Source: Natronomonas halophila
GTDB lineage: Archaea; Halobacteriota; Halobacteria; Halobacteriales; Haloarculaceae
DNA: 64,000 bases
Direction: 5' to 3'
Assembly: GCF_013391085.1 (NCBI RefSeq)
Contig: NZ_CP058334.1
Coordinates: forward strand, 1,612,001 to 1,676,000
Shown: in pieces, positions 17,281-32,866 of the stretch
Layout: every line of letters starts with the position of its first letter
Numbering within the stretch: the first letter of the stretch is position 1
Made by a program: the position numbers and the translations under genes
Notes under the pieces: generated by a model
Told to the model about the DNA's origin: nothing
Seen by the model: the letters and a program-made list of their open reading frames with translations, nothing else
Databases searched by the model: none

Positions 17281-17308
17281 GTTCTCCATGTGAAACCGAG
17301 GGGTTACC
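17281..17308. other. ORB-like element downstream of orc1
   Basis: The motif GTTCTCCATGTGAAACCGAG followed by GGGTTACC matches the intergenic origin boxes (TTCCA-nnn-GAAAC-nn-AGGGGT). It lies two bases after ridA and 235 bases beyond the orc1 stop, so ORB-like sites flank orc1 on both sides. Confidence 0.55.
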
Positions 17309-17436
17309 AAGGATAACGATATTTATAAGGAGAAATCAGTGGAAAGGCGAGTGTCCACCGAGGTTCGGCTGGTGAGACAGAAACAAAGGTTGCATCCGCG
17401 AGGGCAGGTTCGGAGAACCCGCCCGAAGCGGTTCCC

Positions 17437-17545
17437 CGCGCGACCGCAGGGAGCGCGGGACCAAGGGCCGACCATCGGGAGGCCCGCCGTGTCTTTTTCA
17501 TGAACGTTTTTGCCGGCGCGCGAAGCGCGCCGTGCAAAAAGTTTC
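17437..17545 (-). repeat. Palindromic repeat copy 1, directly after the orc1 stop
   Basis: Read on the minus strand, ACTTTTTGC starts two bases after the orc1 stop, followed by a GGCGCGC-TTC-GCGCGCC stem and GGCAAAAACG, then a conserved tail and a second CCCGCGC/GCGCGGG stem. Bases 17455-17545 are identical to 26452-26542. Related sequence may extend to about 17351. It probably also ends orc1 transcription, because a T-run and strong stem follow the stop. Confidence 0.8.
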
Positions 17546-19337
17546 AGTCGAAGCGCGCCTGCACGAATGGCTGAGCGTCCTCGACCTCGCCGACCCGCGA
17601 GTCCGAGAGGAGGACAGCTTCGGTTTCGTCGAGGGGGACGGAAAGGCTGATTTCCTTGGTCCGGCCGTACCGACCCTTCGAGACGACGACGGCGTTGACG
17701 ATGCCGAGCATGTCGAGTTCGCTGATGAGGTCGGTGACCCGCCGTTGGGTGAGGACGTCGGCGTCGATCTCCTGGGCGAGGCGCTTGTAGATGTTGAACA
17801 CCTCGCCGGTGTTGATGTTGTGGACGCCGTTCTTCTCGAGGAGGATGATGGCGTAGAGGACGAGCTTTGATTGTGTGGGGAGGGTGCGTACTACCTCGAC
17901 AACCCGGTCGAGTTCGATCTTCTCCTGGGCGTGGCGGACGTGCTTTTCGTCGACGGTTTCGGTGCGGTCGCGTTCGGCGAGCTCGCCAGCCGTCCGCAGG
18001 AGGTCGAGGGCACGGCGGGCGTCACCGTGTTCCTGTGCGGCGAAGGCTGCACAGAGGGGGATGACGTCCTCGGAGAGGGTGTCGGATTTAAATGCGATTT
18101 CCGAGCGGTGCTGGAGGATATCTCGGAGTTGGGTCGCGTCGTAGGGCGGGAAGACGATTTCCTCCTCGCCGAGGCTGGATTTGACGCGGGGGTCGAGGAA
18201 GTCGGTGAACTTCAGGTCGTTGGAGATGCCCATGATGGAGACCCGGGAGTTGTCGAGTTCCGAGTTCATCCGCGAGAGGTTATAGAGCGTGTCGTCGCCC
18301 GATTTCTCGACGAGTTTGTCGATTTCGTCGAGCATGATGACGACCACGCGCTCGTGGTAGTCGACGGCGTCGAAGAAGGTCTGGTAGACGCGGTCGGTCG
18401 GCCATCCGGTCATCGGGACGGGTTCGAACTCCTCGAGGTCGTCTTCGAGGGTGCCGATTTCGGCCTCGACTTCGGCGACGTTGTCGAACTCGCTGTCTAC
18501 GAGGACCTCGGGGTCTTCGGCGGCCTCGTCGCGAAGCTCGCCGAGTTCGTCGAGGCGCTCCTCGATGTACTCCTCGTTCTTGTCGATGAACTTGTTGGCG
18601 AGTTGTGCGAGCACGCGATACTGGGTGTCGGTCACCTCGCAGTTGATGTACTCGACTTCGCAGGGGACCTCGTACTTCTGGGAGGTCGATTCCAGTTCCT
18701 CGGAGACGAACTTCGCGCTGGCGGTTTTTCCGGTCCCGGTTTTGCCGTAAATGAGGATATTGGAGGGCGTATCCCCGCGGAGAGCCGTCACGAGGATGGT
18801 CGCCATGTTGTTGATCTGTTCCTCACGATGGGGGAGTTTGTGGGGCGTGTAGGAGGGACGGAGGACTTCCTTGTTCTCGAAGATGGGTTCGCCCTCCAGG
18901 AGGTCGTCGAAGAGACCGCGGGATGCCTCGTCGGTTTCGCTCTCGGATTCGGTATCGAGGTCGAGGTCTTCGAGGTCGACGTCGCCGGAGAAACCATCGA
19001 CGTCGGTGCCGGCGGCAGGAGCGTCGGTTTCGGCGAGCGCATCGGCCGTCTCGTCGACTTCCGGGGTGTCTCTCGTTGACGAAGACCCCTTTGTTTCAAC
19101 TGGAGAACCACCAGACTGCGAAGCAGTATTGGCGATTCTCCCGTCCGATGGCTGCTCGTCGAGTACCCCATCGGTGTCGTCCGGTTCGTCCTGGTCCACC
19201 GGCTGGTCGGTCGATGCCGAGTCCGTCGGCTCCTCGTCCTCCGGTGCGTCGGTGGCCGCGTCGCGGCCGTCGCCGACGGCGTCCGGGCTAGTGTTCGATT
19301 CCTCGTCCGTATCCGCGGATGAATTGCCGTCCGTCAT
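17544..19337 (-). CDS. orc1: Orc1/Cdc6 origin-binding initiator
   Basis: This 597-residue initiator of chromosome replication binds the adjacent origin and loads MCM. Residues 1 to about 150 are a disordered Asp/Glu/Ser/Thr-rich arm, unusual in length for the family and containing PVETKGSSS. The AAA+ domain follows, with Walker A YGKTGTGKT near residue 197 and Walker B VVIMLDEIDKL near 331, and it has an acidic helical insertion (IDKNEEYIEERLDEL...) between them. A C-terminal winged-helix domain (TQRRVTDLISELDMLGIV) would contact the ORB sites. An ORB-like box lies 10-33 bases before the start, suggesting self-regulation. A palindromic repeat begins right after the stop. Confidence 0.95.
   Translation of the reverse strand: MTDGNSSADTDEESNTSPDAVGDGRDAATDAPEDEEPTDSASTDQPVDQDEPDDTDGVLDEQPSDGRIANTASQSGGSPVETKGSSSTRDTPEVDETADALAETDAPAAGTDVDGFSGDVDLEDLDLDTESESETDEASRGLFDDLLEGEPIFENKEVLRPSYTPHKLPHREEQINNMATILVTALRGDTPSNILIYGKTGTGKTASAKFVSEELESTSQKYEVPCEVEYINCEVTDTQYRVLAQLANKFIDKNEEYIEERLDELGELRDEAAEDPEVLVDSEFDNVAEVEAEIGTLEDDLEEFEPVPMTGWPTDRVYQTFFDAVDYHERVVVIMLDEIDKLVEKSGDDTLYNLSRMNSELDNSRVSIMGISNDLKFTDFLDPRVKSSLGEEEIVFPPYDATQLRDILQHRSEIAFKSDTLSEDVIPLCAAFAAQEHGDARRALDLLRTAGELAERDRTETVDEKHVRHAQEKIELDRVVEVVRTLPTQSKLVLYAIILLEKNGVHNINTGEVFNIYKRLAQEIDADVLTQRRVTDLISELDMLGIVNAVVVSKGRYGRTKEISLSVPLDETEAVLLSDSRVGEVEDAQPFVQARFD
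19084..19108. other. ORB-like sequence inside the orc1 coding region
   Basis: On the minus strand CTCCAGTTGAAACAAAGGGG is followed by TCTTCG, encoding PVETKGSSS in the disordered arm. It matches the origin boxes and differs at only two synonymous positions from the site in the PolD small-subunit gene at 32457-32479. Confidence 0.55.
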
Positions 19338-19346
19338 TCGTTGATA

Positions 19347-19370
19347 TACCCCTCCGTTTCACGTGGAGAC
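19347..19370. other. ORB-like element A (orc1 promoter side)
   Basis: TACCCCTCCGTTTCACGTGG followed by AGAC; on the other strand TCCACGTGAAACGGAGGGGT. It lies 10-33 bases upstream of the orc1 ATG, overlapping where the promoter must be. Confidence 0.75.
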
Positions 19371-19830
19371 ACACCGCGCGACGACCGAACGGGTTGAATA
19401 CAGTCGGTAGGAACCCGTTACCCCGAATCGGTTTGAAATCGGTCGTCCAGTTGATGCAGAGGAACCGATGGTGCATTACGGTAATAAGCGTTGCGGTGGC
19501 GCGGCGGAAATCGGTGGATAGCGGGTGGATGACGGGGATTAACGAATGTGGGAAAGGAGCACGGCTGAAGTTAACGAAACAATCCGAAACAGTCGCGGCG
19601 TTCGGGGAGCAACGCGGATAACTCGATGCTGGTCACCCGAAACGAACGCCAGTGGAGACGGGTGCACGGGTTGGCAGAGGTCAGCACGAGCCAGTAGAGT
19701 CAACTGGTGTGACTCGGGGCGGATCAGTCGGGATTACTCGTCGTTCGGACGGTCGTTCGGACGGTCGATTGGGGCGTCGGGGGGGACGATGGTTAGTTTC
19801 CAGTGGATGCACGGGAAGCGGAGGGGAGTA

Positions 19831-19880
19831 CCCCCACACCCCTTTGTTTCGGGTGGAACGGTGAAACCGACGGGTGGGGG
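19831..19880. other. Inverted pair of ORB-like elements B
   Basis: The left element CCCCCACACCCCTTTGTTTC plus GGGTGGAAC (19831-19859) faces a right element GTGAAACCGACGGGTGGGGG (19861-19880). The outer CCCCCAC and GTGGGGG tracts and inner GTTTC/GAAAC cores make an imperfect palindrome just left of the AT-rich core. Confidence 0.75.
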
Positions 19881-19900
19881 TGGTCGGAGAGGAGTTCGGA

Positions 19901-20057
19901 CTCTAGTACAGTAACCTTTATATCTATAGTAGTAAAACCAAATCCGCAGTGGAAGGAAATAGAATATATTGTTTAGTTTTATGTCTAGTATAACTAGATG
20001 TTTCGGCAGTAAACCGCATCTAGTCTAGTATTTTCTAGATTTCTACTACGTTTCTAC
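19901..20057. other. AT-rich core, probable DNA-unwinding element, with CTAG cluster
   Basis: About 155 bases very rich in A and T between ORB pairs. It contains six CTAG sites (19903, 19985, 19994, 20020, 20025, 20035), the perfect palindrome TCTAGT-ATA-ACTAGA at 19984-19998, and ACTAGATG/CATCTAGT arms at 19993-20000 and 20017-20024. The position between facing ORBs is what an unwinding element should have. Confidence 0.75.
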
Positions 20058-20098
20058 CGCGAACCGTGGCAGATCCCGTCCCCAGCCAGCCCCCCACC

Positions 20099-20140
20099 AC
20101 ACCCCTTCGTCCCGTTCCACCCGAAACGAAGGGGTGGGGG
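20099..20140. other. ORB-like element C with inverted half-site
   Basis: GTTCCACCCGAAACGAAGGG plus GTGGGGG (20114-20140) is the best ORB match. Its arm ACGAAGGGGTG (20126-20136) pairs with CACCCCTTCGT (20100-20110). A weaker third box CCCCCTCGTTTCACC follows at about 20148-20162. Confidence 0.75.
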
Positions 20141-20443
20141 GCCACCTCCCCCTCGTTTCACCCCCCGCGCCCCGGAATTCCTGCTATAGTCGTCGTTTAG
20201 GGCCTGGTCCGTATCCGAGACACGAGACGACTTCGCTTTTGGGTCTCACCGCCGTTTCCCGTGGGGACGGTTGACACCCGTTGCTGGATGAGTGGTGGTC
20301 GTGGCTGGGGGAGAGGAACGGTAGTCGACAGCTGTTGGTTGATAGACGACGGCCGACAGTCGGCAGCAAGATAGGCACTACCGAGAAGGCTTGTCACCTA
20401 TCGTCCTGACCTTCTCCTAATTCTTCTAAAATCATCGTCCCTG

Positions 20444-20466
20444 TACCCCTCCGTTTCACATCGAAC
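20444..20466. other. ORB-like element D (oapA side)
   Basis: TACCCCTCCGTTTCACATCG then AAC, same orientation and core as element A. It lies about 140 bases before the oapA promoter. Confidence 0.65.
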
Positions 20467-20656
20467 GATATCAGCGGTCGTCTCGCGTCCTTCCACACGC
20501 GCGAAAGACCTTCTCCATCGGTTTCTCACGGACGGCATCATCAGCACCTGTTCCTTCCGTGATGTTTGTCTGACACACAGTTAAGTAAATGCGGTATGGT
20601 AGTACGTGCAGAGCGACTCCGATTTCGACTCGAAATCGGGGCCGTGGGAGGATGAG

Positions 20657-21298
20657 ATGGGACTGCTAACCGAACTCAAATCGAGTATTTCGCGCGCGTC
20701 GTCGGCCCTCTTCTCGGGGAACGAGCCGAAGCGAATCGGCATCTATGGCCCCCCGAACGCAGGCAAGACGACGCTCGCTAACCGTATCGCTCGCGACTGG
20801 ACCGGCGACGCCGTCGGCCCGGAGAGCCACGTACCGCACGAGACGCGGCGTGCGCGTCGAAAGGAAAACGTCGAAATCAAGCGCAACGGCAAGTCCGTCA
20901 CTATCGACGTGGTGGACACGCCCGGCGTCACCACGAAGGTCGACTACAAGGAGTTCCTCGACCACGACATCGAGAAGGACGACGCCGTCCGGCGCTCCCG
21001 AGAGGCGACCGAGGGCGTCGCCGAGGCGATGCACTGGCTCCGCGAGGACGTCGACGGCGTCATCTACGTCCTCGATGCGACGGAGGACCCCTTCACGCAG
21101 GTCAACACGATGCTCATCGGCATCATCGAGAGCCAGAACCTGCCGGTCCTCATCTTCGCGAACAAGATCGACCTCGAGGACGCCAACGTTCAGCGCATCA
21201 GCAACGCGTTCCCGCAGCACGAGACCGTGCCGCTGTCGGCGCTCGAAGGAGACAACATGGACGAAGTCTACGACAAAATCGCGGAGTACTTCGGGTGA
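20657..21298 (+). CDS. oapA: Origin-associated Era-like GTP-binding protein OapA
   Basis: This 213-residue small GTPase has the P-loop GPPNAGKTT at residues 31-39, a DTPG switch motif near 88, and NKID for guanine recognition near 170. Genes of this type next to orc1 and the origin are known in haloarchaea as oapA. ATG 20657 (MGLLTELKSS) matches the family N terminus. However, a GTG at 20606 with a TTAAGTAAA box about 25 bases upstream would give 17 more residues, so the start is uncertain. It begins a three-gene run oapA-oapB-oapC pointing away from the origin. Confidence 0.88.
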   Translation: MGLLTELKSSISRASSALFSGNEPKRIGIYGPPNAGKTTLANRIARDWTGDAVGPESHVPHETRRARRKENVEIKRNGKSVTIDVVDTPGVTTKVDYKEFLDHDIEKDDAVRRSREATEGVAEAMHWLREDVDGVIYVLDATEDPFTQVNTMLIGIIESQNLPVLIFANKIDLEDANVQRISNAFPQHETVPLSALEGDNMDEVYDKIAEYFG

Positions 21299-21302
21299 TA
21301 CC

Positions 21303-21716
21303 ATGCCTGAAGTAACCACAAACGGCGACGACGGCGACGACGGGCTCGCCGACGGTATCCAGATCGACATGATCAGCGCCGACCGGATGCAGGGAATGCG
21401 AACGATGGAGAAAATCCGCCTCATCCTCGACGGCGTCCACGACGGCAATATCGTCATCCTCGAGGAGGGACTCGACCCCGAAGAGGAGTCCAAACTCATC
21501 GAGGTGACGATGTCGGAGATCAACCCCGACGGTTTCACGGGCATCGAAATCGAGACCTACCCCGGCGAGGAAACCAGCGACAACGGCTTTCTCGGCCGCA
21601 TTATGGGGAAGGACAACAGCGATTCGAACAAACTGACGGTCATCGGCCCGGCCAACCGTATCGAGACGCTCCACAAGGACGAGACGCTCATCAGCACGCT
21701 GATCAAGCGCCGGTAA
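21303..21716 (+). CDS. oapB: Origin-associated protein OapB (DUF2073)
   Basis: This 137-residue DUF2073 protein begins four bases after oapA. The conserved core runs from IQIDMISADRMQGMRTMEKI to the GFTGIEIETYP segment and ends LTVIGPANRIETLHKDETLI. The N-terminal 18 residues are acidic and probably disordered. The strict archaeal linkage oapA-oapB-oapC beside the origin is known. The molecular role is not established; the alternating strand-helix pattern suggests a compact alpha/beta nucleic-acid-binding-type domain, which is inference. Confidence 0.85.
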   Translation: MPEVTTNGDDGDDGLADGIQIDMISADRMQGMRTMEKIRLILDGVHDGNIVILEEGLDPEEESKLIEVTMSEINPDGFTGIEIETYPGEETSDNGFLGRIMGKDNSDSNKLTVIGPANRIETLHKDETLISTLIKRR

Positions 21717-21743
21717 TCGGGCTTTCGCCCATCCATCAACACC

Positions 21744-22736
21744 ATGCCACACCAGTGTACTGGCTGCGGCCACACGTTCGCGGACGGCTCCAAGGAGATG
21801 CTGTCGGGCTGTCCGGAGTGTGGCGGCAACAAGTTCCAGTTCCGCCCCTCGGAGGAGGACCTCCCCGATGAGCCAGCCGAATCGGCGGAGTCCGACGCCC
21901 CCTCACGGCCCGACGCCGACTCCTCGTCGGTCGCCGAGACGGTCGGCCGCGCGACGACGAAGATGCGCGACCTCGTTTCCTCCGGGCCGGAGAGCCCCTC
22001 GGACGACCGCGGTGAGCCGACGGCAGAGTCTACTACCGAGTCGTCGACGGAGTCGACCGCAGAGTCGACGTCCGTTCCTGACCCCGATTCGACGACCGAC
22101 CCCGACGCCACCGTTTCGAGCGCGGAACCGACGACGAGCAACGCGTCGGCCGGCTCAGTCGGGGCTTCCGAAACGGCACAGACGGACGCCGACCCGAATC
22201 CGGACGCCGCGTGGCCGAGCGAGTCCGAAGAGGCGCCTGCGGATGTGACTTCTGTCGATTCGTCGTCCGCTCGACCCGAAACCGGGGGAGAACCCGCGGG
22301 GACGGACGACGACGACGGAGAAATCATCGATGCGGACGCCCGCCGCTCGACAACCGACGAGTCTGACGAGGACCTCGCGCAAGCGAGCGCGCGTAGTGAT
22401 ATCGTTCAGGAAGACGAACTCCCCGAAACCGACGAGGTAGCAGCCACCAGCACGTCGGGACTGGAGTCGGCCGAATCACAGGCCGGGGGTCCGGAACCGG
22501 ACGTCGACGGTCGGGTCGTCAGCGAACCTGACGACGAACAGCCGGATATCGCGGAGCTCCGCGAACAGCTCAACGACCAGTTCGAATCCATCAAAATCGT
22601 CGAACCCGGGCAGTACGAACTCAACCTGATGGAACTGTACGACCGCGAGGAGTACATCATCGCGCTGCAGGAAAACGGCCGGTACGTGATTCAGGTCCCG
22701 GAACAGTGGATGGGCGAAGACCCGGGCGAACGATAG
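21744..22736 (+). CDS. oapC: Origin-associated zinc-ribbon protein OapC (DUF2072)
   Basis: This 330-residue protein has three parts: an N-terminal zinc ribbon (Cys5, Cys8, Cys23, Cys26), a roughly 210-residue Ser/Thr/Asp/Glu-rich disordered linker, and a C-terminal domain of about 70 residues. The C-terminal domain (FESIKIVEPGQYELNLMELY...YVIQVPEQWM) is the conserved family part. The linker's composition is like the arm of Orc1 but without its PVETKG motif. It closes the oapABC run; the second cdc6 gene is convergent 153 bases on. Confidence 0.85.
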   Translation: MPHQCTGCGHTFADGSKEMLSGCPECGGNKFQFRPSEEDLPDEPAESAESDAPSRPDADSSSVAETVGRATTKMRDLVSSGPESPSDDRGEPTAESTTESSTESTAESTSVPDPDSTTDPDATVSSAEPTTSNASAGSVGASETAQTDADPNPDAAWPSESEEAPADVTSVDSSSARPETGGEPAGTDDDDGEIIDADARRSTTDESDEDLAQASARSDIVQEDELPETDEVAATSTSGLESAESQAGGPEPDVDGRVVSEPDDEQPDIAELREQLNDQFESIKIVEPGQYELNLMELYDREEYIIALQENGRYVIQVPEQWMGEDPGER

Positions 22737-22889
22737 CCCGGACGTCCCGCATCCCGTCACTCCCGCTTTCCCTCCACTCATCCTTCGGTCATCTGCTTCC
22801 CTCGCCTATTCACCCCTCTCCTTCGACTCGAAATGCGCCGGATACACCCGTGTTATTCCCTGCCGACTTGTACATCAGCCGACGCTCGT

Positions 22890-24014
22890 CTATTCTTCCA
22901 GCCGGTCCAACACCGCATCGGCGTCGTAGGAAAGCGATAGCGTCCGTGAACGCCCACGGCCCTCGACGCTGCTGTATTCGGCGTCGATGAGGCCCAACTG
23001 TTCGAGTTTGTTGATAATCTCGGAATAGCGGGTGTAGCCGAGGTCGGTCTCCTCGCTGAAGACGTCGAAGACGTCGCCGGCGCGCTTGCCGTCGTGGTCG
23101 GCGAGCACGCGAACGAGCGCGGCTTCCGACTCCGAAAGGCCGCGGAGGTGCCGCGAGAGGTGGACGTATTTGGCCTTTTCGTAGGCCTCGTCGACGTCGT
23201 CGGTGTTGACCTCCGTGGACCCGCGCATCTCGGCGTTGAGCCCGGCCCGCCGCAGCAGGTCGATACCGACCCGGAGGTCACCGCCGCTGTCGGCGGTGTG
23301 TTCGGCCACGCGGTCCAGCACCTGCGGGCCGACGGCCTCCTCGCGGAAGCCACGCTTGACGCGTTCCTGGAGGATATCGACGATTTCCCGCTCGCCGTAG
23401 GCGTCGAAGTAGACCTCCTCGGGTCGGAACACCGACTGGACGCGGCTGTCGAGTTCCTCGATGACGTTCAAATCGAGGTCCGAGGAGACGACGATGACGC
23501 CGATCTTCGCGCCCGAGTGGGCCTCGTGGGCCCGAAGCAGCGAGTAGAGCGTATCCGAGGCCTCGTCCTCGTAGAAGAGGTAGTTCACGTCGTCCAACGC
23601 GACAATGAGGACTTCGTCTTCCTCGACGAGGCGGTCGGTAATCTGGCCGAAGAGCTTCTTGAACGAAATTCCGGAGGTCGGCGGTTCGTATTCGAAGAGG
23701 CCCTCGAAGAGTCGCGAGAAGACGGCATACCGGGTCGAATCGACCTGACAGTTCACGCGAACCACGTCGACGTCGCTGACGCTGGCCAGTTCGTCGAAGA
23801 GTTTTTGCACGGCGGTCGTTTTCCCGGTGCCGGGCGGCCCGCGGGCCATCACGTTCAGGGGACGGGAGCCGCGGACCGCCGGTCGAAGGGCGTATTTGAG
23901 GGTCTCCATCTGCTCGTCGCGATGGAGGAACGCCTCCGGCAGGTAATCGAGTTCGAGGACGTGCTCGTCGCGGAACACGGATTCGTCCCACGAGAGCATG
24001 TCGTCGTCCGCCAT
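22890..24014 (-). CDS. Second Orc1/Cdc6-type AAA+ ATPase
   Basis: This 374-residue Cdc6 paralogue has Walker A ARGPPGTGKTT at residues 57-67, Walker B LIVALDDVNYLF near 139, the SSDLDLNVIEELDSRVQSVFRPEEVYFDAY sensor-1/arginine region, and a C-terminal winged-helix domain (TDLGYTRYSEIINKLEQLGLI). It lacks the long acidic arm of the first Orc1. The Walker B aspartate pair is DD rather than the usual DE, so ATPase behaviour may differ. A weak ORB-like stretch lies beyond its stop at 22812-22832. Having two initiators around one origin is common in haloarchaea. Confidence 0.92.
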   Translation of the reverse strand: MADDDMLSWDESVFRDEHVLELDYLPEAFLHRDEQMETLKYALRPAVRGSRPLNVMARGPPGTGKTTAVQKLFDELASVSDVDVVRVNCQVDSTRYAVFSRLFEGLFEYEPPTSGISFKKLFGQITDRLVEEDEVLIVALDDVNYLFYEDEASDTLYSLLRAHEAHSGAKIGVIVVSSDLDLNVIEELDSRVQSVFRPEEVYFDAYGEREIVDILQERVKRGFREEAVGPQVLDRVAEHTADSGGDLRVGIDLLRRAGLNAEMRGSTEVNTDDVDEAYEKAKYVHLSRHLRGLSESEAALVRVLADHDGKRAGDVFDVFSEETDLGYTRYSEIINKLEQLGLIDAEYSSVEGRGRSRTLSLSYDADAVLDRLEE

Positions 24015-24091
24015 TTCACTTTCACCACGCTGGCGCGGGTGTTAAGCCTTCGGGCGAACACGCCGAAGACGACTCGGAAGGTCCGAACGCA

Positions 24092-26089
24092 TCAATCGGT
24101 CTGCTGGGTCGCCTCGAACTTCTCCAATAACTCGTCGTAGAGGACGTCGCCGTCCTCTTCCGCGAGTTTCTCGACGATGAGTTCCGGTGTCGACCGGGCG
24201 AGATGGTTCTTGACGGGCGAGCGGTTCACGCGCAACTCGCCGTTCTCCAGGCCCACCGCTTCGATGCCGTCGATGGTCACGTCGGCGTCGGCGGCCTCCC
24301 GAATCTCGCCGGCCAGATGCGAGACGAACACCGCCGTCGAGTCGCTTTCCTCCAGTGCCTCCAGAATCCCGGCGATGATGACCGCGCTGGCGCCGGGTTC
24401 GGTAATCGACTCCAGTTCGTCGACCAACACCAGTCGCGTTCGGTCGCCCGCGACGAGCGACCCGAACTCCCGGAGCGTCGACTCGAAGGCGCCCGCATCC
24501 AACGTGCCCTGTGTCTTCGCCTGATAATGTAGGGCCTCGAACCGCTCCAGTCGCGCTGCCTCGGCAGGCACGGGCATCCCCATCTGTCCTAACACGACGA
24601 CCAACCCGACCAAATCGAGCGTCGACGTCTTCCCGCCGCTGTTGACACCCGAGAGCAGTGCCACGCCTTCGACCCCATAATCGACGGGTTCGACCTCCTC
24701 AAAGGCGACGTCAAGCAGCGGCGACCGCCCATCCTCGATTTCGAATCCCCGGCCCTCGAAGGTCGGGAACGTGCAGTCGAAGTCCCGGGCGAAGCGGGCG
24801 ATAGCCAACTCCACGTCCAACTCCAGAGCGGCATCGACAAGGTCGTCCGCGGACTCGCGCATCTCCCGGAGGTCGTCGGCCAACTCGCGTTTCAGCGCGG
24901 CGGCCCGGCGGTCCCGCTCGGCGTTCAACTCCTCGCGTAACTGGCTGATGACGCGTTCCTCGTGTTCGACGGGAAACGTCGGGTCGTCGCCGAAGGCCTG
25001 CCGGGCCATCGATTCGTAGTCGTCCAACCCCAGCGCGTCCGCGAGGTGGTCCCGCGCGGCGTCGATGGCGGCGTCGTACTCGTCGGCCAACTCCCGGTCC
25101 AGAAGCGAATCGACGCCCGCGCCGCGTTCGACCAGCGACAGCAAATCGGCGCCCTCGATGGTCACGTCGCGTTCCTCGATGGCCTCCCGAAGCCGGTCGT
25201 TCGCGGTGTTTTCGGCCATCGAAACCGCGGCATCGAGGTCATCCAGCGCGTCCTCCAGTTTGTCCAGCGTTTCGTCGCCCGCGACGGTGCCGTCTTCGTT
25301 GAGTCGCGACAGCGCCTCGTCGAGCGCTTCGACGTCACAGGGCGCGTCCAAATCCGCAGCCTGATGGACCGCCGCGGCCGCTCGCAGTCGGTTCCGGTTC
25401 CGTGCGAAGAAAGCTAGCGTCCGTTCGGGAACCAACCGTTCGGGGTCCTCCAGCGCCGTCGGGTCGACCCGAACGTCGCCCTCGACGTCGATGCCCGAAA
25501 ACTCCTCGTCGAGGACGATAACGGTCGAATAGCCCCGGGCCAAATCCGCAATCCCGCGGGCGTCGTCGACTAACTCGACGCTCATCTCGGGGACGGCCTC
25601 GCGGGCCGCCGAATACGTCTCGGCGTCGTTCGTCGCGAGACATCGGTCCCGAACCCGAACGTCCCGCGGCGGTTCCAGCGGTTCGACGCCGTCCAGCGCT
25701 TCGATTACCTCCGCCGTCGGGTCCCGTTCGACCGCTTCCCGAGCGAACTCTCGAACCTCTTCGATTCGGGACTCGGCAGCGCTCGGATAGAAGGTTTCCA
25801 GCCGCTTTTCGGCGTAGTCGGTCACCGCTCGCTCCTGCAGCAAGTCCAGCGCCGACTCGTAGAGTTCCCGCGCCCGCGGCGTCGACAGGAAATCGCTCTC
25901 GTCGTCGTGGTCGTTCCGAATCGCCGCCCGAGCGATGCGGGCCGCCCGCCCCTCGCTGATGCCCGGCGCTTTCGCCAGGCCGGCGACGTCGCCGGCCGAC
26001 AGCAGCGTTTCCGGGTCGTCGAGTTCGGCCAACCGGTCGGCGGTTTTCGCGCCGACGCCCGGAATGGCCTCCAACTCCTCGCGTTCCAT
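24092..26089 (-). CDS. MutS-family ATPase with N-terminal helix-hairpin-helix (MutS5/MutS2-like)
   Basis: This 665-residue protein has an N-terminal helix-hairpin-helix pair (LEAIPGVGAKTADRLAEL and LAKAPGISEGRAARIAR), a long helical middle with coiled-coil stretches, and a C-terminal MutS ATPase domain. The ATPase domain has Walker A LSGVNSGGKTST near residue 479, Walker B LVLVDELESIT near 550, and the ABC-type histidine in AVFVSHLAGEI. There is no mismatch-recognition domain, so it is more likely to act on branched DNA or recombination intermediates than on mismatches. The position inside a replication cluster fits such a role. Confidence 0.88.
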   Translation of the reverse strand: MEREELEAIPGVGAKTADRLAELDDPETLLSAGDVAGLAKAPGISEGRAARIARAAIRNDHDDESDFLSTPRARELYESALDLLQERAVTDYAEKRLETFYPSAAESRIEEVREFAREAVERDPTAEVIEALDGVEPLEPPRDVRVRDRCLATNDAETYSAAREAVPEMSVELVDDARGIADLARGYSTVIVLDEEFSGIDVEGDVRVDPTALEDPERLVPERTLAFFARNRNRLRAAAAVHQAADLDAPCDVEALDEALSRLNEDGTVAGDETLDKLEDALDDLDAAVSMAENTANDRLREAIEERDVTIEGADLLSLVERGAGVDSLLDRELADEYDAAIDAARDHLADALGLDDYESMARQAFGDDPTFPVEHEERVISQLREELNAERDRRAAALKRELADDLREMRESADDLVDAALELDVELAIARFARDFDCTFPTFEGRGFEIEDGRSPLLDVAFEEVEPVDYGVEGVALLSGVNSGGKTSTLDLVGLVVVLGQMGMPVPAEAARLERFEALHYQAKTQGTLDAGAFESTLREFGSLVAGDRTRLVLVDELESITEPGASAVIIAGILEALEESDSTAVFVSHLAGEIREAADADVTIDGIEAVGLENGELRVNRSPVKNHLARSTPELIVEKLAEEDGDVLYDELLEKFEATQQTD

Positions 26090-26130
26090 CTACCACTCTA
26101 TGTGCCGTCATCCCGGAAAACTCCTTCTAC

Positions 26131-26337
26131 GAACTTTTTGTACGGGCGCCTGCGGCCGTCTGCTCGCGGGCCGTAGGCCCGCTCGCATGGTCCGAGGGAC
26201 CTTCGGTCCCTCGCTACCCGGCAAAAACTTCGATGAAAAAGACACGTCGGCCTTCCCTACGGTCAGGCCTCGGTCCCGCGCCTCCCTTCGGTCGGCGCGG
26301 CGGAACCGCTCGCGCCCTGCGGGCGCTCGTGGACATC
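26131..26337 (+). repeat. Palindromic repeat copy 3 (inverted, about 205 bp)
   Basis: Starts GAACTTTTTGTACGGG, continues through hairpins GCGGGCC-GTA-GGCCCGC and GAGGGACC-TTC-GGTCCCTC, then GGCAAAAAC, then a diverged version of the conserved tail (GATGAAAAAGACACG...GGTCCCGCG). It ends in a module GAACCGCTCGCGCCCTGCGG that reappears inverted in copy 4. It faces copy 2 in the same intergenic region, giving a large inverted repeat between the MutS-like and PolD genes. Confidence 0.75.
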
Positions 26338-26433
26338 ACGCAATTTTGTCGAGATAGCTAACGCGAGAGCTCAACTGAAGGCGGTCAATCAAAAATGAGG
26401 TTAGCATACGCCGAGCGCAGCGAGGCGTTTCCC
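26338..26433. other. Spacer between facing repeat copies
   Basis: This is unremarkable intergenic DNA with GAGCGCAGCGAGGCG-type small palindromes leading into copy 2. No promoter or coding signal was seen. Confidence 0.4.
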
Positions 26434-26542
26434 CGCGCGAGCGAAGCGAGTGCGGGACCAAGGGCCGACCATCGGGAGGCCCGCCGTGTCTTTTTCATGA
26501 ACGTTTTTGCCGGCGCGCGAAGCGCGCCGTGCAAAAAGTTTC
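26434..26542 (-). repeat. Palindromic repeat copy 2, directly after the PolD large-subunit stop
   Basis: On the minus strand, AAACTTTTTGC follows the TAG of the polymerase gene. The GGCGCGC-TTC-GCGCGCC stem, GGCAAAAACG and the tail are identical to copy 1 over 91 bases (26452-26542). Outside that block the second stem differs (GAGCGAAGCGAG in place of GACCGCAGGGA), so the copies diverge in hairpin loops. Confidence 0.8.
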
Positions 26543-29500
26543 TACATGAAATCAGCAATGCCACTTTGCTTGTTGGTGTCGTCCTCGAAGATGGATTCGA
26601 CGGCGCGGTCCAGTATCTTGAGGCGCTGCTTGGTGTATTCCCGACAGTCGTACTCCTCGGCGACCATGATTGCGGTGTCGATGTACTTGTTGACCGACCC
26701 CTGATGGACGGTGAGGTTGACGCGGCCGCCACATTCCCGGCAGTCGCCGGTCAGGGGGACGCGCCGGAACTTCTCGCCGCAGTCAAGACACCGGGTTTCC
26801 TGTCGTGAGAACGCCCGAAGGTTCCCGATGATGTCCGGCAGGAAGTGATACTCGATGACCCGCTCGGCGACGTCGGTTTCGTCGACCGACCGAAGCTTTC
26901 GGGAAAGCTCCAGTTGGGCGTTCATCTTCTCCATCATGTCGCCGAGCGTTTTGTACGCCGAGAGGTCCGGCCCGAGGGCGATGTCGCCCGTATCGTGGGT
27001 GTGCTCGAAACCGCGATACTGGTCCTCGGTGCCGAGGGTGTCCTCACCGATCTGGATGAGGTCCTCGACCTCGCCGGGGTCGGCCATCTCGCGCGTGGCC
27101 TCGTAGAACTCGCGGGGGTACTCCGAGACGATGTCCATGTTGTGGGCCTCGTCGTCGATTTCCGCCGGGTCGATGCGCGAGGACATGACCAGCGGCGCGT
27201 CCATCCGGCCCCCACGCTGGTTCGGCAGGAATGATTTAGAGAAGTTGAGAAGTCCGTCCATGAGGAGCATTACGCAATCTTCGTCACCATCGCAATTCCG
27301 ACGCTTCGCGGCGTGAAAGTACGGATGAGCGTATCCGACGGCCGCCGAGGTGAATCCTATAATCCTCCCGACAACTGCGGCGGACGTGTGGGGTGCCATC
27401 CCGAAGACCAACTCGCCGACGAGTTCGTCGCGGTCGTCGATGTCGTAGTAGCGGTCCATGCCGTAGTACTGCTCCAGCAGGTCGTCGACGAAGTCGGCGG
27501 TCCGCATCATGTGCTCGGCGGCGCCGTTCGAGAGGACGACGTCCTGGACTCGCAACTCGACCAGTTGGTCCTCGTGGGTCAGCGGGTCGCCGTGGATGTC
27601 CTCGTCGTAGCCGAGGGCTTTCAGTTGGCCGACGGTGATGTCGAGTTCCGAGGCCCGCACGGAGGTGACCGGGAGGTCGGTCATGTCGTAACGGACGGTG
27701 CCGTCCTTGAACGATGAAACGCCGTTTTTGGCCCGAAGGACGCCCTTTTCGATGGGTTCGGGAACCTTGTGCTCCGAGGAGAGTCCCTGAACACCTTTCA
27801 GGACGTCGAAGGCGTTCTCGCGTTCGCCGACGTTTTCGAGGGCGTTGCGGTACTCCTCGTGGACGTCGATGGTCTTGGTCTGGACGGCCTCGGCTTCGGA
27901 CTCACAGCGGGGACAGATGGCGCGGCCTGCCTCGTCGGGTTCGACGTCGATGTCGCAACTGTAGCAGATATAGTGGGGGTCGGTAACGGCGTTGCAGTCG
28001 GGACAGCGCGCCCGGTGGGTTTCGGTGTCGCAGTCGGGACAGGTCCGGCGGCCGACCTGCACTTCGACCCGGCCGGGGGTGTCCTGCATGTTCTCGGAGT
28101 GTTTCGCGGCGGCGGCGATATCTCGCTGGGAGCCGCCGGCCTCGCCGATGGGAAATAGCGTGTGGACGGCGGGCGAGAGGTCGCGCTTCTCGGATTTTTC
28201 GGGGCGACCCATCCGACAGCCGATGCGGGTTGGCGCGCGTTCGCGAACCTCGAAGGGCGCGACCTCGTTGACGGCCTTGACAGCGTTGTGGCCGTCGTCC
28301 CAGTTTCGGGCCTCCTCGGAGAGGTCCTCGCTGCCCCACGGCTTTTCGAGGTCGTCGGTCAGTCCGAGCGACTGGACGAAGGGGACAGCGTCGGGGACGG
28401 TCAGCGTCTCCTCGCCCTGGGTATGTTCGACGATGAGTACCTCCAGAGCCTCCCGGACGGGTTCAGTACGCGGGAGGACAAGGGTGCGTTCCGTGGGTTC
28501 GTTGGCGTCTGCTGGTGCAACTGCGGCACCATCGGCTTCTGCCCAGTGTCCGTCGCTTGCGGCTTCCGCCAGCGTCTCGAACCGCTCGATATCGAGGTCG
28601 TGCCACAGGTAGGTGTATTCGGGATGCAGCGGCGCGCCGTACTCCTCGACCCATTCGAGAGACTGTGCGGCGCTCGGGTGTTCGAGGTTGACCCGCGGCG
28701 AGTCCTCCAGCGCCTGCACGTCGGCGCCGGCAGCCTTCAGGTCGCCTTTCCACCACTCGGGCGTGTAGGAGGCCGGCGAGAGCGGGTGGTTGTTCTCGAC
28801 GTATTCGCCGTAGTTGACGAGATATTCGCCCAAATCCAGAATCTTCTCGACGCCGTTGCGGATTTCCAGCGCCTCCTCGGGGTCGTCGATGCGCCGGACG
28901 TCGCCGTTGGCGAGTTTGACCGTCGGGCCTTCCATCGAGTCGACGGGGACGACGCCGCCGGCCTTGCCGGGGCGTTCGGTCTTGATCTGAGTGCCCGTCG
29001 CGAGGAAGTCGTCGACAAGGTGCATCGTCGCGGGATGGACGCCGGCCGTCGCGAAGCCGTGGTTCCGGGACCGGCCGTAGCGAAGACGGAAACCGCCGGT
29101 CTCGGAGGGGTGACCGAAGACGGGACGGCCCGCAATCAGGTCCCGAAGGAACTTCTTGGAGGGGTCGTGACGCGGCGGACCGTCGGGGCCGTCGGCTTCT
29201 CCCTCGGCCTCGTCTCCCGCTTCGTCGCCGTCGGCGTCTTCCTCCTCGGTGTCGGCCTCATCACCCTCGTCAGCCGCCGAATCGTCGCCTTTGTCCTTTT
29301 TATACGTGCCGTCGATGAGGTCCTGCAACCACGGCCAGTCGACCTCGTCGAGTTGGGAGGTGTACCGCTGAATCTTCGGCGCTTTCTGGGCGATACCCTC
29401 CCCCAGAACGAGACACATCCCACCACGTGCGTTGTTCGTGTCGACGCGTTCGAGGTCCCGAAAGCCGGAGACTTCCTCGTCGCCGGTGGCCTCGCCGTCG

Positions 29501-30144
29501 AGCATGATGGGCATGTTCTCGGCGATGAATTTCGTCTCGGCGTCCTTCGGGGAGTACTGCAGGCCCGTCTCGTTGTCGTAGAGAGCCAGTTCCTCGGCGT
29601 AGCGTTCGACCTCGTCGGTTCGGGCTTTGAACTCGTCGATGCCGATGAGGGTTCGAGTGTAGTCGGCCACCAGCACCGACAGCGCCTGTGCGGTCCCGCC
29701 CGCAGACCGGATGGGACCAGCGTAGTAGATGTTGATGAACTCGGTGCCGTCGTCGTTCTCCAGCAGTTCGACCCGGTCGATGCCCTCGATGGGCGCGGCG
29801 ACGACGCCTTCGGTCAGGAGGGCGACGGCGGTCCGGACCGCACCTTCGACCTTCCCGGCGCGGGTGTCGTAGTCGCCGACCTTGCCGTCGGCGAAGTCGG
29901 CCGCGAGTTCGAGGGCGGCCTCCTCACGCGAGAGGTCGGGGTCTTCCTCCATCTCGCGGACGCGCTCGGCGACCCCGTCGATGCCGAGGATGTTCTCGAC
30001 GCGGTCGGCCATGTCCTTCGCGATGGGAATCTCGACGTCCTCGGTGGGGTCGCCGCCGCGCTGTCGGGCCTCGCGGGCGACGTCCAGCGCCTCGTCGAGG
30101 CCGGTTTCCAACCGCTCGAAGTACGCTTCGTCGTCGGGGCGCAT
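26542..30144 (-). CDS. polC: DNA polymerase D large (catalytic) subunit DP2
   Basis: This 1200-residue catalytic subunit of the archaeal replicative polymerase PolD has the N-terminal MRPDDEAYFERLETGLDEA, YYAGPIRSAGGTAQALSVL near residue 140, and zinc-binding modules near 700-760 (CPDCDTETHRARCPDC, CYSCD...CPRC). The catalytic block NCDGDED is near 950; its two aspartates match the PolD double-psi-barrel active site. A C-terminal zinc finger (CLDCGEKF...CRECGG) ends the protein. A short Asp/Glu insertion occurs near residue 290. No intein interrupts NCDGDED, a site often occupied in other archaea. It starts directly after the PPC gene (TAG then ATG). Confidence 0.96.
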   Translation of the reverse strand: MRPDDEAYFERLETGLDEALDVAREARQRGGDPTEDVEIPIAKDMADRVENILGIDGVAERVREMEEDPDLSREEAALELAADFADGKVGDYDTRAGKVEGAVRTAVALLTEGVVAAPIEGIDRVELLENDDGTEFINIYYAGPIRSAGGTAQALSVLVADYTRTLIGIDEFKARTDEVERYAEELALYDNETGLQYSPKDAETKFIAENMPIMLDGEATGDEEVSGFRDLERVDTNNARGGMCLVLGEGIAQKAPKIQRYTSQLDEVDWPWLQDLIDGTYKKDKGDDSAADEGDEADTEEEDADGDEAGDEAEGEADGPDGPPRHDPSKKFLRDLIAGRPVFGHPSETGGFRLRYGRSRNHGFATAGVHPATMHLVDDFLATGTQIKTERPGKAGGVVPVDSMEGPTVKLANGDVRRIDDPEEALEIRNGVEKILDLGEYLVNYGEYVENNHPLSPASYTPEWWKGDLKAAGADVQALEDSPRVNLEHPSAAQSLEWVEEYGAPLHPEYTYLWHDLDIERFETLAEAASDGHWAEADGAAVAPADANEPTERTLVLPRTEPVREALEVLIVEHTQGEETLTVPDAVPFVQSLGLTDDLEKPWGSEDLSEEARNWDDGHNAVKAVNEVAPFEVRERAPTRIGCRMGRPEKSEKRDLSPAVHTLFPIGEAGGSQRDIAAAAKHSENMQDTPGRVEVQVGRRTCPDCDTETHRARCPDCNAVTDPHYICYSCDIDVEPDEAGRAICPRCESEAEAVQTKTIDVHEEYRNALENVGERENAFDVLKGVQGLSSEHKVPEPIEKGVLRAKNGVSSFKDGTVRYDMTDLPVTSVRASELDITVGQLKALGYDEDIHGDPLTHEDQLVELRVQDVVLSNGAAEHMMRTADFVDDLLEQYYGMDRYYDIDDRDELVGELVFGMAPHTSAAVVGRIIGFTSAAVGYAHPYFHAAKRRNCDGDEDCVMLLMDGLLNFSKSFLPNQRGGRMDAPLVMSSRIDPAEIDDEAHNMDIVSEYPREFYEATREMADPGEVEDLIQIGEDTLGTEDQYRGFEHTHDTGDIALGPDLSAYKTLGDMMEKMNAQLELSRKLRSVDETDVAERVIEYHFLPDIIGNLRAFSRQETRCLDCGEKFRRVPLTGDCRECGGRVNLTVHQGSVNKYIDTAIMVAEEYDCREYTKQRLKILDRAVESIFEDDTNKQSGIADFM

Positions 30145-30567
30145 CTACAGCGGCCAGAGGTCGAGGTCAGTCGTCTCGTCGTGCTCGCGTTCGAGATGGG
30201 TGTCCAGTTCCCGGACGTAGAGTTCGCCGGCGAAGGTGGTCGCCGAATCGAGGTGCCCCCCGACCATCGAACCATCCTCGCGAGACAGCGTCACGTGCGT
30301 GTGTGCGAAGCGGTCGCCCTCCAGATGCGAGATGTTCCCCAGCGCAGTCGTCACCTCGAACGGTTCGTCGAATTCGACGGGGTAGTATTCCTGTTCGTCC
30401 TGGTCGTAGAAGTAGACCGTCGCGTCCTGCACCGCGCCGAGACCGAAGAAGAAGGCCGCATCGATGCCCTCGGCGTCGGCGAAGGCCTCGATCTGCTCGC
30501 GCCAATCCCGTCCGTGTTCCAGTCGGGCGACGAACTCCCGGTCACCCTCGACGCGTTGATAATCCAT
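30145..30567 (-). CDS. PPC/DUF296 domain protein
   Basis: This 140-residue protein is a single PCC (plants-and-prokaryotes conserved) domain, as found in AT-hook proteins and in stand-alone archaeal trimers. Characteristic pieces are IEAFADAEGIDAAFFFGLGAV, ALGNISHLEGDRFAHTHVTLS with paired histidines, and GGHLDSATTFAGELYV. ATG 30567 (MDYQRVEGDRE) is preferred over a GTG-type extension of nine residues. Its stop touches the PolD large-subunit start, so the two probably form an operon. A DNA-binding or metal-binding role is possible but not shown by sequence. Confidence 0.82.
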   Translation of the reverse strand: MDYQRVEGDREFVARLEHGRDWREQIEAFADAEGIDAAFFFGLGAVQDATVYFYDQDEQEYYPVEFDEPFEVTTALGNISHLEGDRFAHTHVTLSREDGSMVGGHLDSATTFAGELYVRELDTHLEREHDETTDLDLWPL

Positions 30568-30590
30568 ACTGGGTGGGATGACGGCAGCGG

Positions 30591-30625
30591 TCAAAAAGGT
30601 GTTCTCCCGGTGGCGGTCACCGGGA
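30591..30625 (-). terminator. Hairpin plus T-run terminator after the 55-residue gene
   Basis: On the minus strand TCCCGGTG-ACCGC-CACCGGGA (30605-30625) is followed about ten bases later by TTTTT (30591-30595). It lies 60 bases after the stop at 30685 and before the PPC gene, so it would separate the two transcripts. Confidence 0.55.
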
Positions 30626-30684
30626 CCGAACCGAAGCCGTGGCTACGAACCTCGAAAATGGGTCCCCACCCGTCGGCCACGCGG

Positions 30685-30852
30685 TTATCGCCAGTCGTCT
30701 ACGTCGACTGTGGCTGCCGTGGACATGGAGAGATAGGCTTCCTCTCGGCAAAGCTCGGCGATGATAAGTCGGTCGCCGTCGTTGCCGCTGTCCACGGACG
30801 CCATAACCTCACAGTCGGAAACCGTCTCCGCAGTGGCCGTGTCCTGTGCCAT
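30685..30852 (-). CDS. Small conserved haloarchaeal protein (DUF7556-like), 55 residues
   Basis: This 55-residue acidic protein reads EVMASVDSGN...DRLIIAELCREEAYLSM and ends in a conserved-looking DVDDWR. It resembles a small haloarchaeal family (DUF7556) of unknown function. ATG 30852 is chosen because TTATATA lies about 30 bases upstream. It has two cysteines but no zinc-finger spacing. Confidence 0.68.
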   Translation of the reverse strand: MAQDTATAETVSDCEVMASVDSGNDGDRLIIAELCREEAYLSMSTAATVDVDDWR

Positions 30853-31014
30853 GCATGTGCATAGTTGACAGTAGGTATATAACCCTGACGATGTGACACC
30901 GTGACATACCGTGATTTGCCGCATCGTTTATGAGGGATTTATATGTGGTAAGTAACATGATGCCGGAGAATCATTTTAAGGCAGGTGTCGAGTATGATTA
31001 ACATACCACACAGT

Positions 31015-31220
31015 AGGTATCCGTGAGCGCCCGCAGGGCGCGAGCGGTTCCCGCTGGCGAGGCCGAAGGCCGAGCCAGCGTAGCGCCGACTGACTAACGC
31101 GAGCCGGAGTGAAGCGGAGGCTCGCGGCTGGAGGGAGGCGCGCATATTTTCCCCACGTTTTTGCCGAGAACCGGGGTCGCGCCCCGAAGCGGGCGCGACC
31201 CGCGTTCTCGTGCAAAAAGT
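31015..31220 (-). repeat. Palindromic repeat copy 4, directly after the PolD small-subunit stop
   Basis: This element of about 205 bp ends three bases from the TAG of the PolD small-subunit gene. The stop-proximal hairpin has the same ends as copies 1 and 2 (TTTTTGC/GCAAAAA at 31158-31164 and 31212-31218) but a longer inner stem: CGAGAAC/GTTCTCG plus GGGTCGCGCCC/GGGCGCGACCC. The far end carries GAGCGCCCGCAGGGCGCGAG followed by CGGTTCC, shared with copy 3 in inverse orientation. Further hairpins (CTGGC...GCCAG, GCGAGCC...GGCTCGC) lie between. Confidence 0.78.
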
Positions 31221-31222
31221 GG

Positions 31223-32866
31223 CTATGAAAACTTGTGGACCGTCATATTCAGCGTATCGAGGTCCACGACGGGCGCGAACCCGGCGTCGGGGTCGATGTT
31301 GACGGATTTCTGGAAGTCGGTCTGGGCCTGCCAGCAGCCGGAGTTGACCGCGAGCACGTTCCGGTATTTCCCCCAGCCGAGTTTGTGGACGTGGCCGGTA
31401 TGGAAGATGTCGGGCACCTCGTCCATGACGAGATAGTCCTTTTCCTCAGGCGCTAGACGGGTGTGGCCGCCGAACTGCGGGGCGACGTGGCGCTTTTTCA
31501 GGAGTTGGTACATCGCCTTGTGGGGGTCGTCGTAACTGGCCTTGTCCTCGGGGAGTTCGGCGATGACCTCGTCCAGTGAGACGCCGTGGTACATGAGAAT
31601 TGAGACACCCTCCAGCGTGACGACGGAGGGGTTCGAAACGATGCGGGCGTCGTGGGCGGTCATGATGTCGCGCAACTCCTCGTCGAAGCCCGGCTGGGGT
31701 TCGGCGAGGCGGACGGCGTCGTGGTTGCCGGGTATCATGACGATTTCCATGTCGCCGGGGACTTCCTTGAGGTACTCCGAGAAGGCCTCGTACTGGTCGA
31801 AGATGTCGACGATGTCGAGTTCCTCGTCCTGGTCGGGGTAGACGCCGACGCCCTCGACCATGTCGCCGGCGATGAGGAGGTACTCGATGCGTTCGGCTTC
31901 GGGCGTGTGGAGCCAGTCGGTAAAGCGGTGCCAGGCGTCGGCCATGAACTCCTGTGAGCCGACGTGGACGTCGCTGATGAGGGCGGCCTGGACGTGGCGG
32001 TCGGCCGTCGAGGGTTCGTAGGTCCGGGGAATATCCGGGAAATAGAGGTCGTCGACGAACATGATGGAGCCGTCATCCGAGAGGGTCCCGTCGACGGCGA
32101 TGACCTCGTCACAGAGCAGTTCGTCGACGAGGCCGGCGATGTTCTTGTCCTTCATCACGAGACAGGGGTAGACGCCGGTGGTGTCCTCCAGTTCGATGAG
32201 CCAGTGGCCGGAGGCCGTCGACCGGATGTCCGAGACCATCCCGACCATGCCGGCGTCGCCGCCGCCCGGACTGGCCTCCAGTTGGGAGGCGTTGCGGTGG
32301 TTGACCCGACCACGGAGTTTTCCGGCGAGGCGCTCGTAGCGGTCCCGGAACGTCGCCACGAAGTCCTCGTACTCGCCGGTCCCGGTCGAGTGTCCGGTCA
32401 TGTCGTTGGCGATATCGAGGTCGCGCTTCGAGGGGTCGACGTCCCGCCCGCTCGAAGACCCCTTCGTTTCGACTGGAGCTGATACCCCTCCATCCCCTGA
32501 TTCGGTCGCCGTAGTTCCAGTTGAAGTAGAGGGGTCTGTATCCGATGAAGAGTCGGCGACTGCGCCGCCGTCTCCCCCCGCTTCGGCTGCCGCGGCCGTC
32601 GCGGGTTCGTCCTCGGAAATCGGGTCTCGGCGGCCGCGCGGTTCGCCGTCGAGGGCGTCCTTGACGTCGGCCGCGGTGAGTTTCAGGGCGTCGTCGGGCG
32701 TCGCCTCGACGGCGAGCAACAGGGCCTGTTCGGGGCTGTCGGCGCTTGCGAGGAGCGTAATCGCTTCGCGGTCGGCGGTGTAGCCGTGGCTCGCGAGTTG
32801 TTGAGCGATGCGGGCGGGCTCCTCCTGAGGCACGTCGAAGACGTTGCCGGCGGCGGCCAAAAGCAT
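31223..32866 (-). CDS. polB: DNA polymerase D small subunit DP1 (exonuclease)
   Basis: This 547-residue small subunit of PolD carries the Mre11-like 3'-5' proofreading nuclease. After an N-terminal helical domain there is a disordered linker (about residues 85-150), then an OB-fold region, then the calcineurin-like phosphodiesterase motifs in order: LISDVHVGS, LLIAGDMVEG, MIPGNHDAV, MYHGVSLDE and HTGHVHKLGWG, supplying the metal ligands. The linker includes PVETKGSSSGRD, almost the same as in Orc1, and its DNA contains two ORB-like motifs. It is separated from the DP2 gene by the PPC gene, a 55-residue gene and a repeat. Confidence 0.95.
   Translation of the reverse strand: MLLAAAGNVFDVPQEEPARIAQQLASHGYTADREAITLLASADSPEQALLLAVEATPDDALKLTAADVKDALDGEPRGRRDPISEDEPATAAAAEAGGDGGAVADSSSDTDPSTSTGTTATESGDGGVSAPVETKGSSSGRDVDPSKRDLDIANDMTGHSTGTGEYEDFVATFRDRYERLAGKLRGRVNHRNASQLEASPGGGDAGMVGMVSDIRSTASGHWLIELEDTTGVYPCLVMKDKNIAGLVDELLCDEVIAVDGTLSDDGSIMFVDDLYFPDIPRTYEPSTADRHVQAALISDVHVGSQEFMADAWHRFTDWLHTPEAERIEYLLIAGDMVEGVGVYPDQDEELDIVDIFDQYEAFSEYLKEVPGDMEIVMIPGNHDAVRLAEPQPGFDEELRDIMTAHDARIVSNPSVVTLEGVSILMYHGVSLDEVIAELPEDKASYDDPHKAMYQLLKKRHVAPQFGGHTRLAPEEKDYLVMDEVPDIFHTGHVHKLGWGKYRNVLAVNSGCWQAQTDFQKSVNIDPDAGFAPVVDLDTLNMTVHKFS
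32457..32536. other. Inverted pair of ORB-like motifs in the PolD small-subunit gene
   Basis: Site 1 (32457-32479) reads on the minus strand CTCCAGTCGAAACGAAGGGG then TC. Site 2 (32514-32536) reads on the plus strand GTTCCAGTTGAAGTAGAGGG then GTC. Both fall in the disordered-linker codons and face each other about 35 bases apart, like ORB pairs in the origin. Confidence 0.5.

Follow-up and report, generated by a model that had tools for sequence, protein, structure and literature searches.

A fixed pair of Orc1-type boxes within the polymerase D small-subunit gene of haloarchaea suggests that a site controlling the main origin has been overlooked

In Natronomonas halophila, the polB gene, which encodes the small subunit (DP1) of polymerase D (PolD), carries in its linker two origin boxes (ORBs) of the kind found at the main origin, oriC1. 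The boxes are placed face to face, at a spacing that is fixed in nearly all haloarchaeal polB genes compared. Being fixed in this way and kept by selection at the DNA level, the pair suggests that control of the main origin involves a site missed so far. As the core of the polB boxes is shared with the oriC1 boxes, their binding by Orc1/Cdc6 is likely. We consider it probable that the pair is a satellite of the oriC1 system, binding Orc1 without firing and serving to titrate or regulate the initiator. Little is known of what limits initiation at an archaeal main origin, a question on which the polB pair may bear; its boxes also offer a precise, codon-neutral target, which can be destroyed by synonymous changes.

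The window, i.e. the whole stretch of 64,000 nucleotides that was analysed, is part of a 3.21 Mb chromosome; by its PolD small subunit, the nearest named relative is Natronomonas gomsonensis. The boxes are located between the N-terminal region and the catalytic core of the encoded protein, at the following positions of the window:

31223 to 32866, minus strand: polB, PolD small subunit DP1 (DNA_pol_E_B/calcineurin-like phosphoesterase)
32458 to 32476, minus strand: Box A, CCAGTCGAAACGAAGGGGT, exact core ORB in the polB codons for PVETKG; the '+' box in polB orientation
32477 to 32516, no strand: spacer between the boxes, 40 bp, of fixed length, about 58% GC, its sequence unconserved across haloarchaea
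32517 to 32535, plus strand: Box B, CCAGTTGAAGTAGAGGGGT, degenerate ORB with two mismatches, encoding the (D)PSTSTG stretch

Both boxes are built like archaeal ORBs of the oriC1 type, in which the core CCANNNGAAAC leads into a G-string (AGGGGT). Their CCA ends point inwards and their G-strings outwards, with 40 bp separating them. Box A is exact to the core CCANNNGAAACNNAGGGGT, while Box B deviates at two of 14 fixed bases, GAAGT replacing GAAAC. A preliminary description of this DNA had reported two boxes facing each other within linker codons, the second of them imperfect, and had noted that Box A and a copy in orc1 (19085–19103, minus strand) both encode PVETKGSSS and differ at synonymous sites only; all of this is borne out. 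The counterparts of Box B have no mismatches in several relatives of the genus and zero or one in most relatives.

A chance match is ruled out by the uniqueness of the pair in the genome, by reversed controls without a single hit and by comparison with shuffled codons. In pattern searches of the whole genome (3,211,682 bp), the exact core CCANNNGAAACNNAGGGGT is matched six times, always within positions 17286–32476 of the window and no more than 15 kb from oriC1; one of these matches is the one in the polB linker. Allowing up to two mismatches, there are 26 matches, against seven for the reversed-pattern control. Taken alone, Box B is unremarkable (14 two-mismatch matches genome-wide), yet it lies exactly at the spacing conserved in relatives, and the pair pattern (up to three mismatches) occurs once. 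The same chromosome-wide scan turned up no equally good matches in unrelated genes.

At the level of the class, the pair, with up to three mismatches and the conserved spacing, is present in 148 of 292 genomes, nearly always once per genome, while the reversed-pattern pair is absent from all 292. When all spacings from 30 to 119 bp were allowed in 80 polB genes (79 loci from named haloarchaeal genomes plus the window), the best face-to-face pair had a start-to-start distance of 59 bp in 75 genes and of 56 bp in the other five. The mismatch totals of these pairs are 0–6 of 28 fixed bases, compared with 7–13 in 400 codon-shuffled controls. A pair with up to four mismatches is found in 135 of 202 distinct polB linkers, and at least one box with no more than one mismatch in 173, although these frequencies are not unbiased, part of the set having been picked for failing the first pattern. 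Four named Haloarcula species carry the pair with 0–2 mismatches. Three features had gone unrecognised in the preliminary description: the constancy of the spacing, the conservation across the class and a difference in G-string between two classes of box (see below).

The constraint acts on the DNA, as is evident from the fixation of rare synonymous codons. Wherever an amino acid is conserved, it is invariably encoded by the codon that the box demands, even if this codon is rare in the same genes: GTT for valine (62/62; 5% expected), ACT for threonine (61/61; 4%), CCA for proline (72/72; 8%), GGA for glycine (67/67; 9%) and GAA for glutamate (79/79; 28%), counts that come from sequences sharing ancestry, so that their binomial p-values overstate the evidence. 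The argument for the DNA level is made by the span of this codon fixity, which extends over genera whose flanks hardly align. At the positions left free by the boxes (N positions), the amino acids vary (V/P/A/H and K/E/G/R). The two boxes hold all of the information content, the remainder of the linker being unconserved and variable in length; for the 31 genes with measurable flanks, spacer length has a standard deviation of 0.74 nt, compared with 30 nt and 14 nt for the linker stretches to either side. The alignment of polB linkers from related haloarchaea proposed in the preliminary description thus shows strictly conserved synonymous positions and a protein sequence that is not conserved elsewhere in the linker.

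The boxes are inverted repeats encoding similar peptides, and their conservation might in principle reflect the peptide or a hairpin in the mRNA instead of an Orc1 site. We regard this as highly improbable. The codon choice rules out conservation of the peptide, the codons being fixed while amino acids change at N positions. An RNA hairpin is disfavoured because the arms do not covary: pairing at N positions is no better than for shuffled arms, except at one weak position (p 0.007). Lineages with a single box, and a non-coding relic in Halocatena described below, also speak against both.

Comparison of the polB boxes with those of oriC1, which is located at about 19.3–20.5 kb of the window and adjoins orc1, reveals the two classes of box. 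The features of this region are:

17544 to 19337, minus strand: orc1 (Cdc6/Orc1, oriC1 family)
19838 to 19856, minus strand: left core ORB of oriC1, with extended G-string
20117 to 20135, plus strand: right core ORB of oriC1, with extended G-string
19348 to 19366, minus strand: start-proximal ORB, 29 bp upstream of the orc1 start codon, without extended G-string
19085 to 19103, minus strand: ORB in the orc1 N-terminal linker, PVETKG frame, without extended G-string
17286 to 17304, plus strand: exact ORB downstream of orc1, without extended G-string
20445 to 20463, minus strand: ORB with one mismatch on the far side of oriC1, without extended G-string

An AT-rich stretch (about 19.92–20.06 kb) separates the left and right core ORBs. 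The boxes on either side of the AT-rich part of oriC1 extend as GGGGTGGGGGGG in almost every one of 60 loci, while the polB boxes end at GGGGTC and lack the halophile-specific extended G-string. The positions concerned are G in close to 100% of the oriC1 boxes, against roughly 6–55% of the polB boxes. In the window, the extended G-string is confined to the central oriC1 pair; neither the other boxes of the orc1 region nor the polB pair have it. Mutating it in either oriC1 box abolishes origin function in Haloarcula hispanica (PMC3936714). Since the extended G-string that oriC1 needs in that species is missing, the recognition core is present in the polB pair, and features required for firing are absent.

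Several boxes of the orc1 region recur in relatives. In 55 of 60 haloarchaeal orc1 loci, a start-proximal plus box with up to two mismatches precedes an in-frame start by 23–34 bp, an arrangement suggesting that Orc1 represses its own gene. The ORB in the orc1 linker, always in the PVETKG frame, is found in the window and in nearly all orc1 loci examined from the Natronomonas group; in Natrialbaceae, the ORB within orc1 is located downstream of Walker A instead. An ORB downstream of orc1 is found at a similar place in several relatives with a displaced polB. Near oriC1, there is also a second Cdc6/Orc-like gene of 374 amino acids (window 22890–24014, minus strand).

The face-to-face topology is the same as that of the core oriC1 boxes, and dormant origins exist in haloarchaea (PMC4595724), so the pair could be an auxiliary or dormant origin, or a site for helicase loading. 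Three observations disfavour an independent origin and make this distinctly unlikely: the 40-bp spacer is not AT-rich but GC-rich, averaging 62% GC; the extended G-string, mutation of which abolishes oriC1, is absent; and deletion of oriC1 in Haloarcula hispanica reveals no other origin (PMC3936714). Although the boxes are inverted as in haloarchaeal origins, they do not adjoin an orc1/cdc6 gene, polB being 11.9 kb from orc1 here and up to 310 kb elsewhere. In Haloarcula hispanica, deleting cdc6A is far more difficult than deleting oriC1 (PMC3936714). The ease of deleting oriC1 relative to cdc6A, with no other origin appearing, fits a non-origin role for Orc1 sites. The preliminary description had left the choice between a titration or regulatory site and a secondary origin; a titration or regulatory role linked to oriC1 fits best, whereas a secondary origin is a poor match.

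Most of the haloarchaea examined share the gene order oriC1-orc1-sec11-polB-lysC. In Natronomonas and a number of further genera in its family, polB is 10.6–310 kb away from orc1, and the pair has travelled with it. Displaced polB genes at 10.6–130 kb have pairs with 0–2 mismatches in most cases and up to four in single ones, and the gene at 310 kb has a pair with three mismatches. That the pair remains in polB when the gene moves along the chromosome would suit a different function, in which Orc1 bound within polB acts as a roadblock to tune its transcription and couples polymerase level to initiator level. The box close to the orc1 start in most loci, suggesting that Orc1 regulates genes, also agrees with a roadblock. 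We nevertheless think it unlikely, because of what is seen in Halocatena, which disfavours regulation of polB as the main role. In the five genomes of this genus, polB is on another replicon and lacks the boxes, and the old chromosomal site retains them as non-coding DNA. In Halocatena salina, polB is on a 532-kb plasmid; in the other four genomes, polB and orc1 are on different contigs. The only PolD small-subunit gene detected in Halocatena salina is plasmid-borne (L309 7986–9557). The plasmid-borne polB of Halocatena may be a copy acquired from a box-less lineage.

At the old site, between sec11 and lysC, a plus box with zero or one mismatch survives in all five Halocatena genomes, as placed by pairwise alignment. 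In three of the five, a face-to-face partner with three mismatches is 76–79 bp away, for which the chance expectation is about 0.002 per locus. The spacing of the relic is no longer tied to the reading frame of polB; a relative that has retained polB at this site has a spacing of 80 bp. As the relic has outlasted the departure of polB, the most economical interpretation is that the element is tied to the oriC1 chromosome rather than to the expression of polB, with Halocatena, a single genus, counting as one event.

The element goes back to the common ancestor of the class, or almost as far, and it is reducible. The plus box (zero or one mismatch) is kept and the minus box lost in all genomes fetched from one genus (g26), both polB boxes are degenerate, to differing degrees, in Haloferax, and two polB genes of the class sample (L122 and L123) have no recognisable box. 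The single-box lineages, the degenerate boxes of Haloferax and the two box-less genes imply that the pair is not indispensable. In the Haloferax loci L041, L044, L055, L065, L068 and L074, in which the polB pair has degenerated, exact ORBs are present about 8.9 kb downstream of the polB start. Beyond the class, the pair pattern was not found in 164 genomes of the same phylum. Downstream of DP1 in family f13 of this phylum, there is a conserved ORB-like stretch, TCTCCAGTKGAAATNNTGGGGTC (L277 3280, L279 3371, L281 3166, L284 3024).

The fixed spacing suggests two proteins acting jointly. It may be that the pair is an architectural or initiator-remodelling element, at which paired Orc1 bridges the site to oriC1 or alters the nucleotide state of Orc1; such an element could account for a vital role of Cdc6A outside oriC1, a further function of this protein being implied by the difficulty of deleting its gene. 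The persistence of single boxes in some lineages, and spacings of 56, 71, 77 and about 79–80 bp in others, not all of which are in helical phase, argue against this and leave it rather unlikely. A broader proposal, in which a class-wide Orc1 element of fixed geometry would inactivate or bridge the initiator on behalf of oriC1 and so explain why Cdc6A is vital although oriC1 is dispensable, is one we advance tentatively, as possible but doubtful.

Returning to the satellite site that we favour, two Orc1 (Cdc6-1) molecules would bind the pair in a fixed geometry without loading a productive helicase. The polB site would be duplicated soon after oriC1 fires, and the duplicated site would then withdraw or regulate Orc1, limiting re-initiation as has been proposed for oriC2D. 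Its position in a coding linker would reflect an ancestral place close to oriC1, combined with the tolerance of the linker. A pure titration site has no obvious need for a fixed spacing, which counts against titration as such.

The polB boxes have the same core consensus and the same inverted orientation as the core of haloarchaeal oriC1. The latter differs in having an AT-rich element, the extended G-string and a spacing of about 200–600 bp, compared with 59 bp for the polB pair. The nearest tested precedent is oriC2D of Haloarcula hispanica, a cluster of Orc/Cdc6 boxes without origin activity for which titration of the initiator has been proposed (PMC3936714). Like oriC2D, the polB pair places initiator boxes on the chromosome of the origin but away from the origin itself. 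The two differ in that oriC2D serves oriC2 and comprises 11 boxes, all intergenic and downstream of cdc6E, whereas polB has two boxes in coding DNA with cores of the oriC1 type. Bacterial datA, a DnaA titration locus in which initiator boxes outside the origin limit initiation, would be an analogue in the way it works; its proteins and sequence are unrelated.

An earlier origin survey searched the intergenic stretches next to orc/cdc6 genes for boxes (PMC3528665), and a site within polB would escape a survey of this scope. We found no report of ORBs inside haloarchaeal polB in the open-licence full-text literature. The closest counterpart is the dp1 cluster of Thermococcales, which likewise places Orc1 boxes in the PolD small-subunit gene, near oriC. 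Cdc6/Orc1 reportedly binds this cluster in vivo and in vitro, as judged by ChIP and gel shift. A passage in Berthon et al. 2008 (PMC2643942), citing Matsunaga 2007, mentions ORB and mini-ORB repeats in the DP1 gene of four Thermococcales. ORBs in DP1 were therefore already known in that group; new are the fixed spacing, the fixed codons, the missing G-string extension and the non-coding relic in haloarchaea. Common descent with the Thermococcales cluster is unproven, as none of 30 DP1 loci from other classes of the same phylum has boxes. The haloarchaeal version is distinguished by its two-box, face-to-face arrangement with fixed spacing and fixed codons in a linker, but in both cases the ORBs lie within the coding sequence of DP1. 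Two distant archaeal groups, Thermococcales and haloarchaea, thus both place Orc1 boxes in a polymerase D gene.
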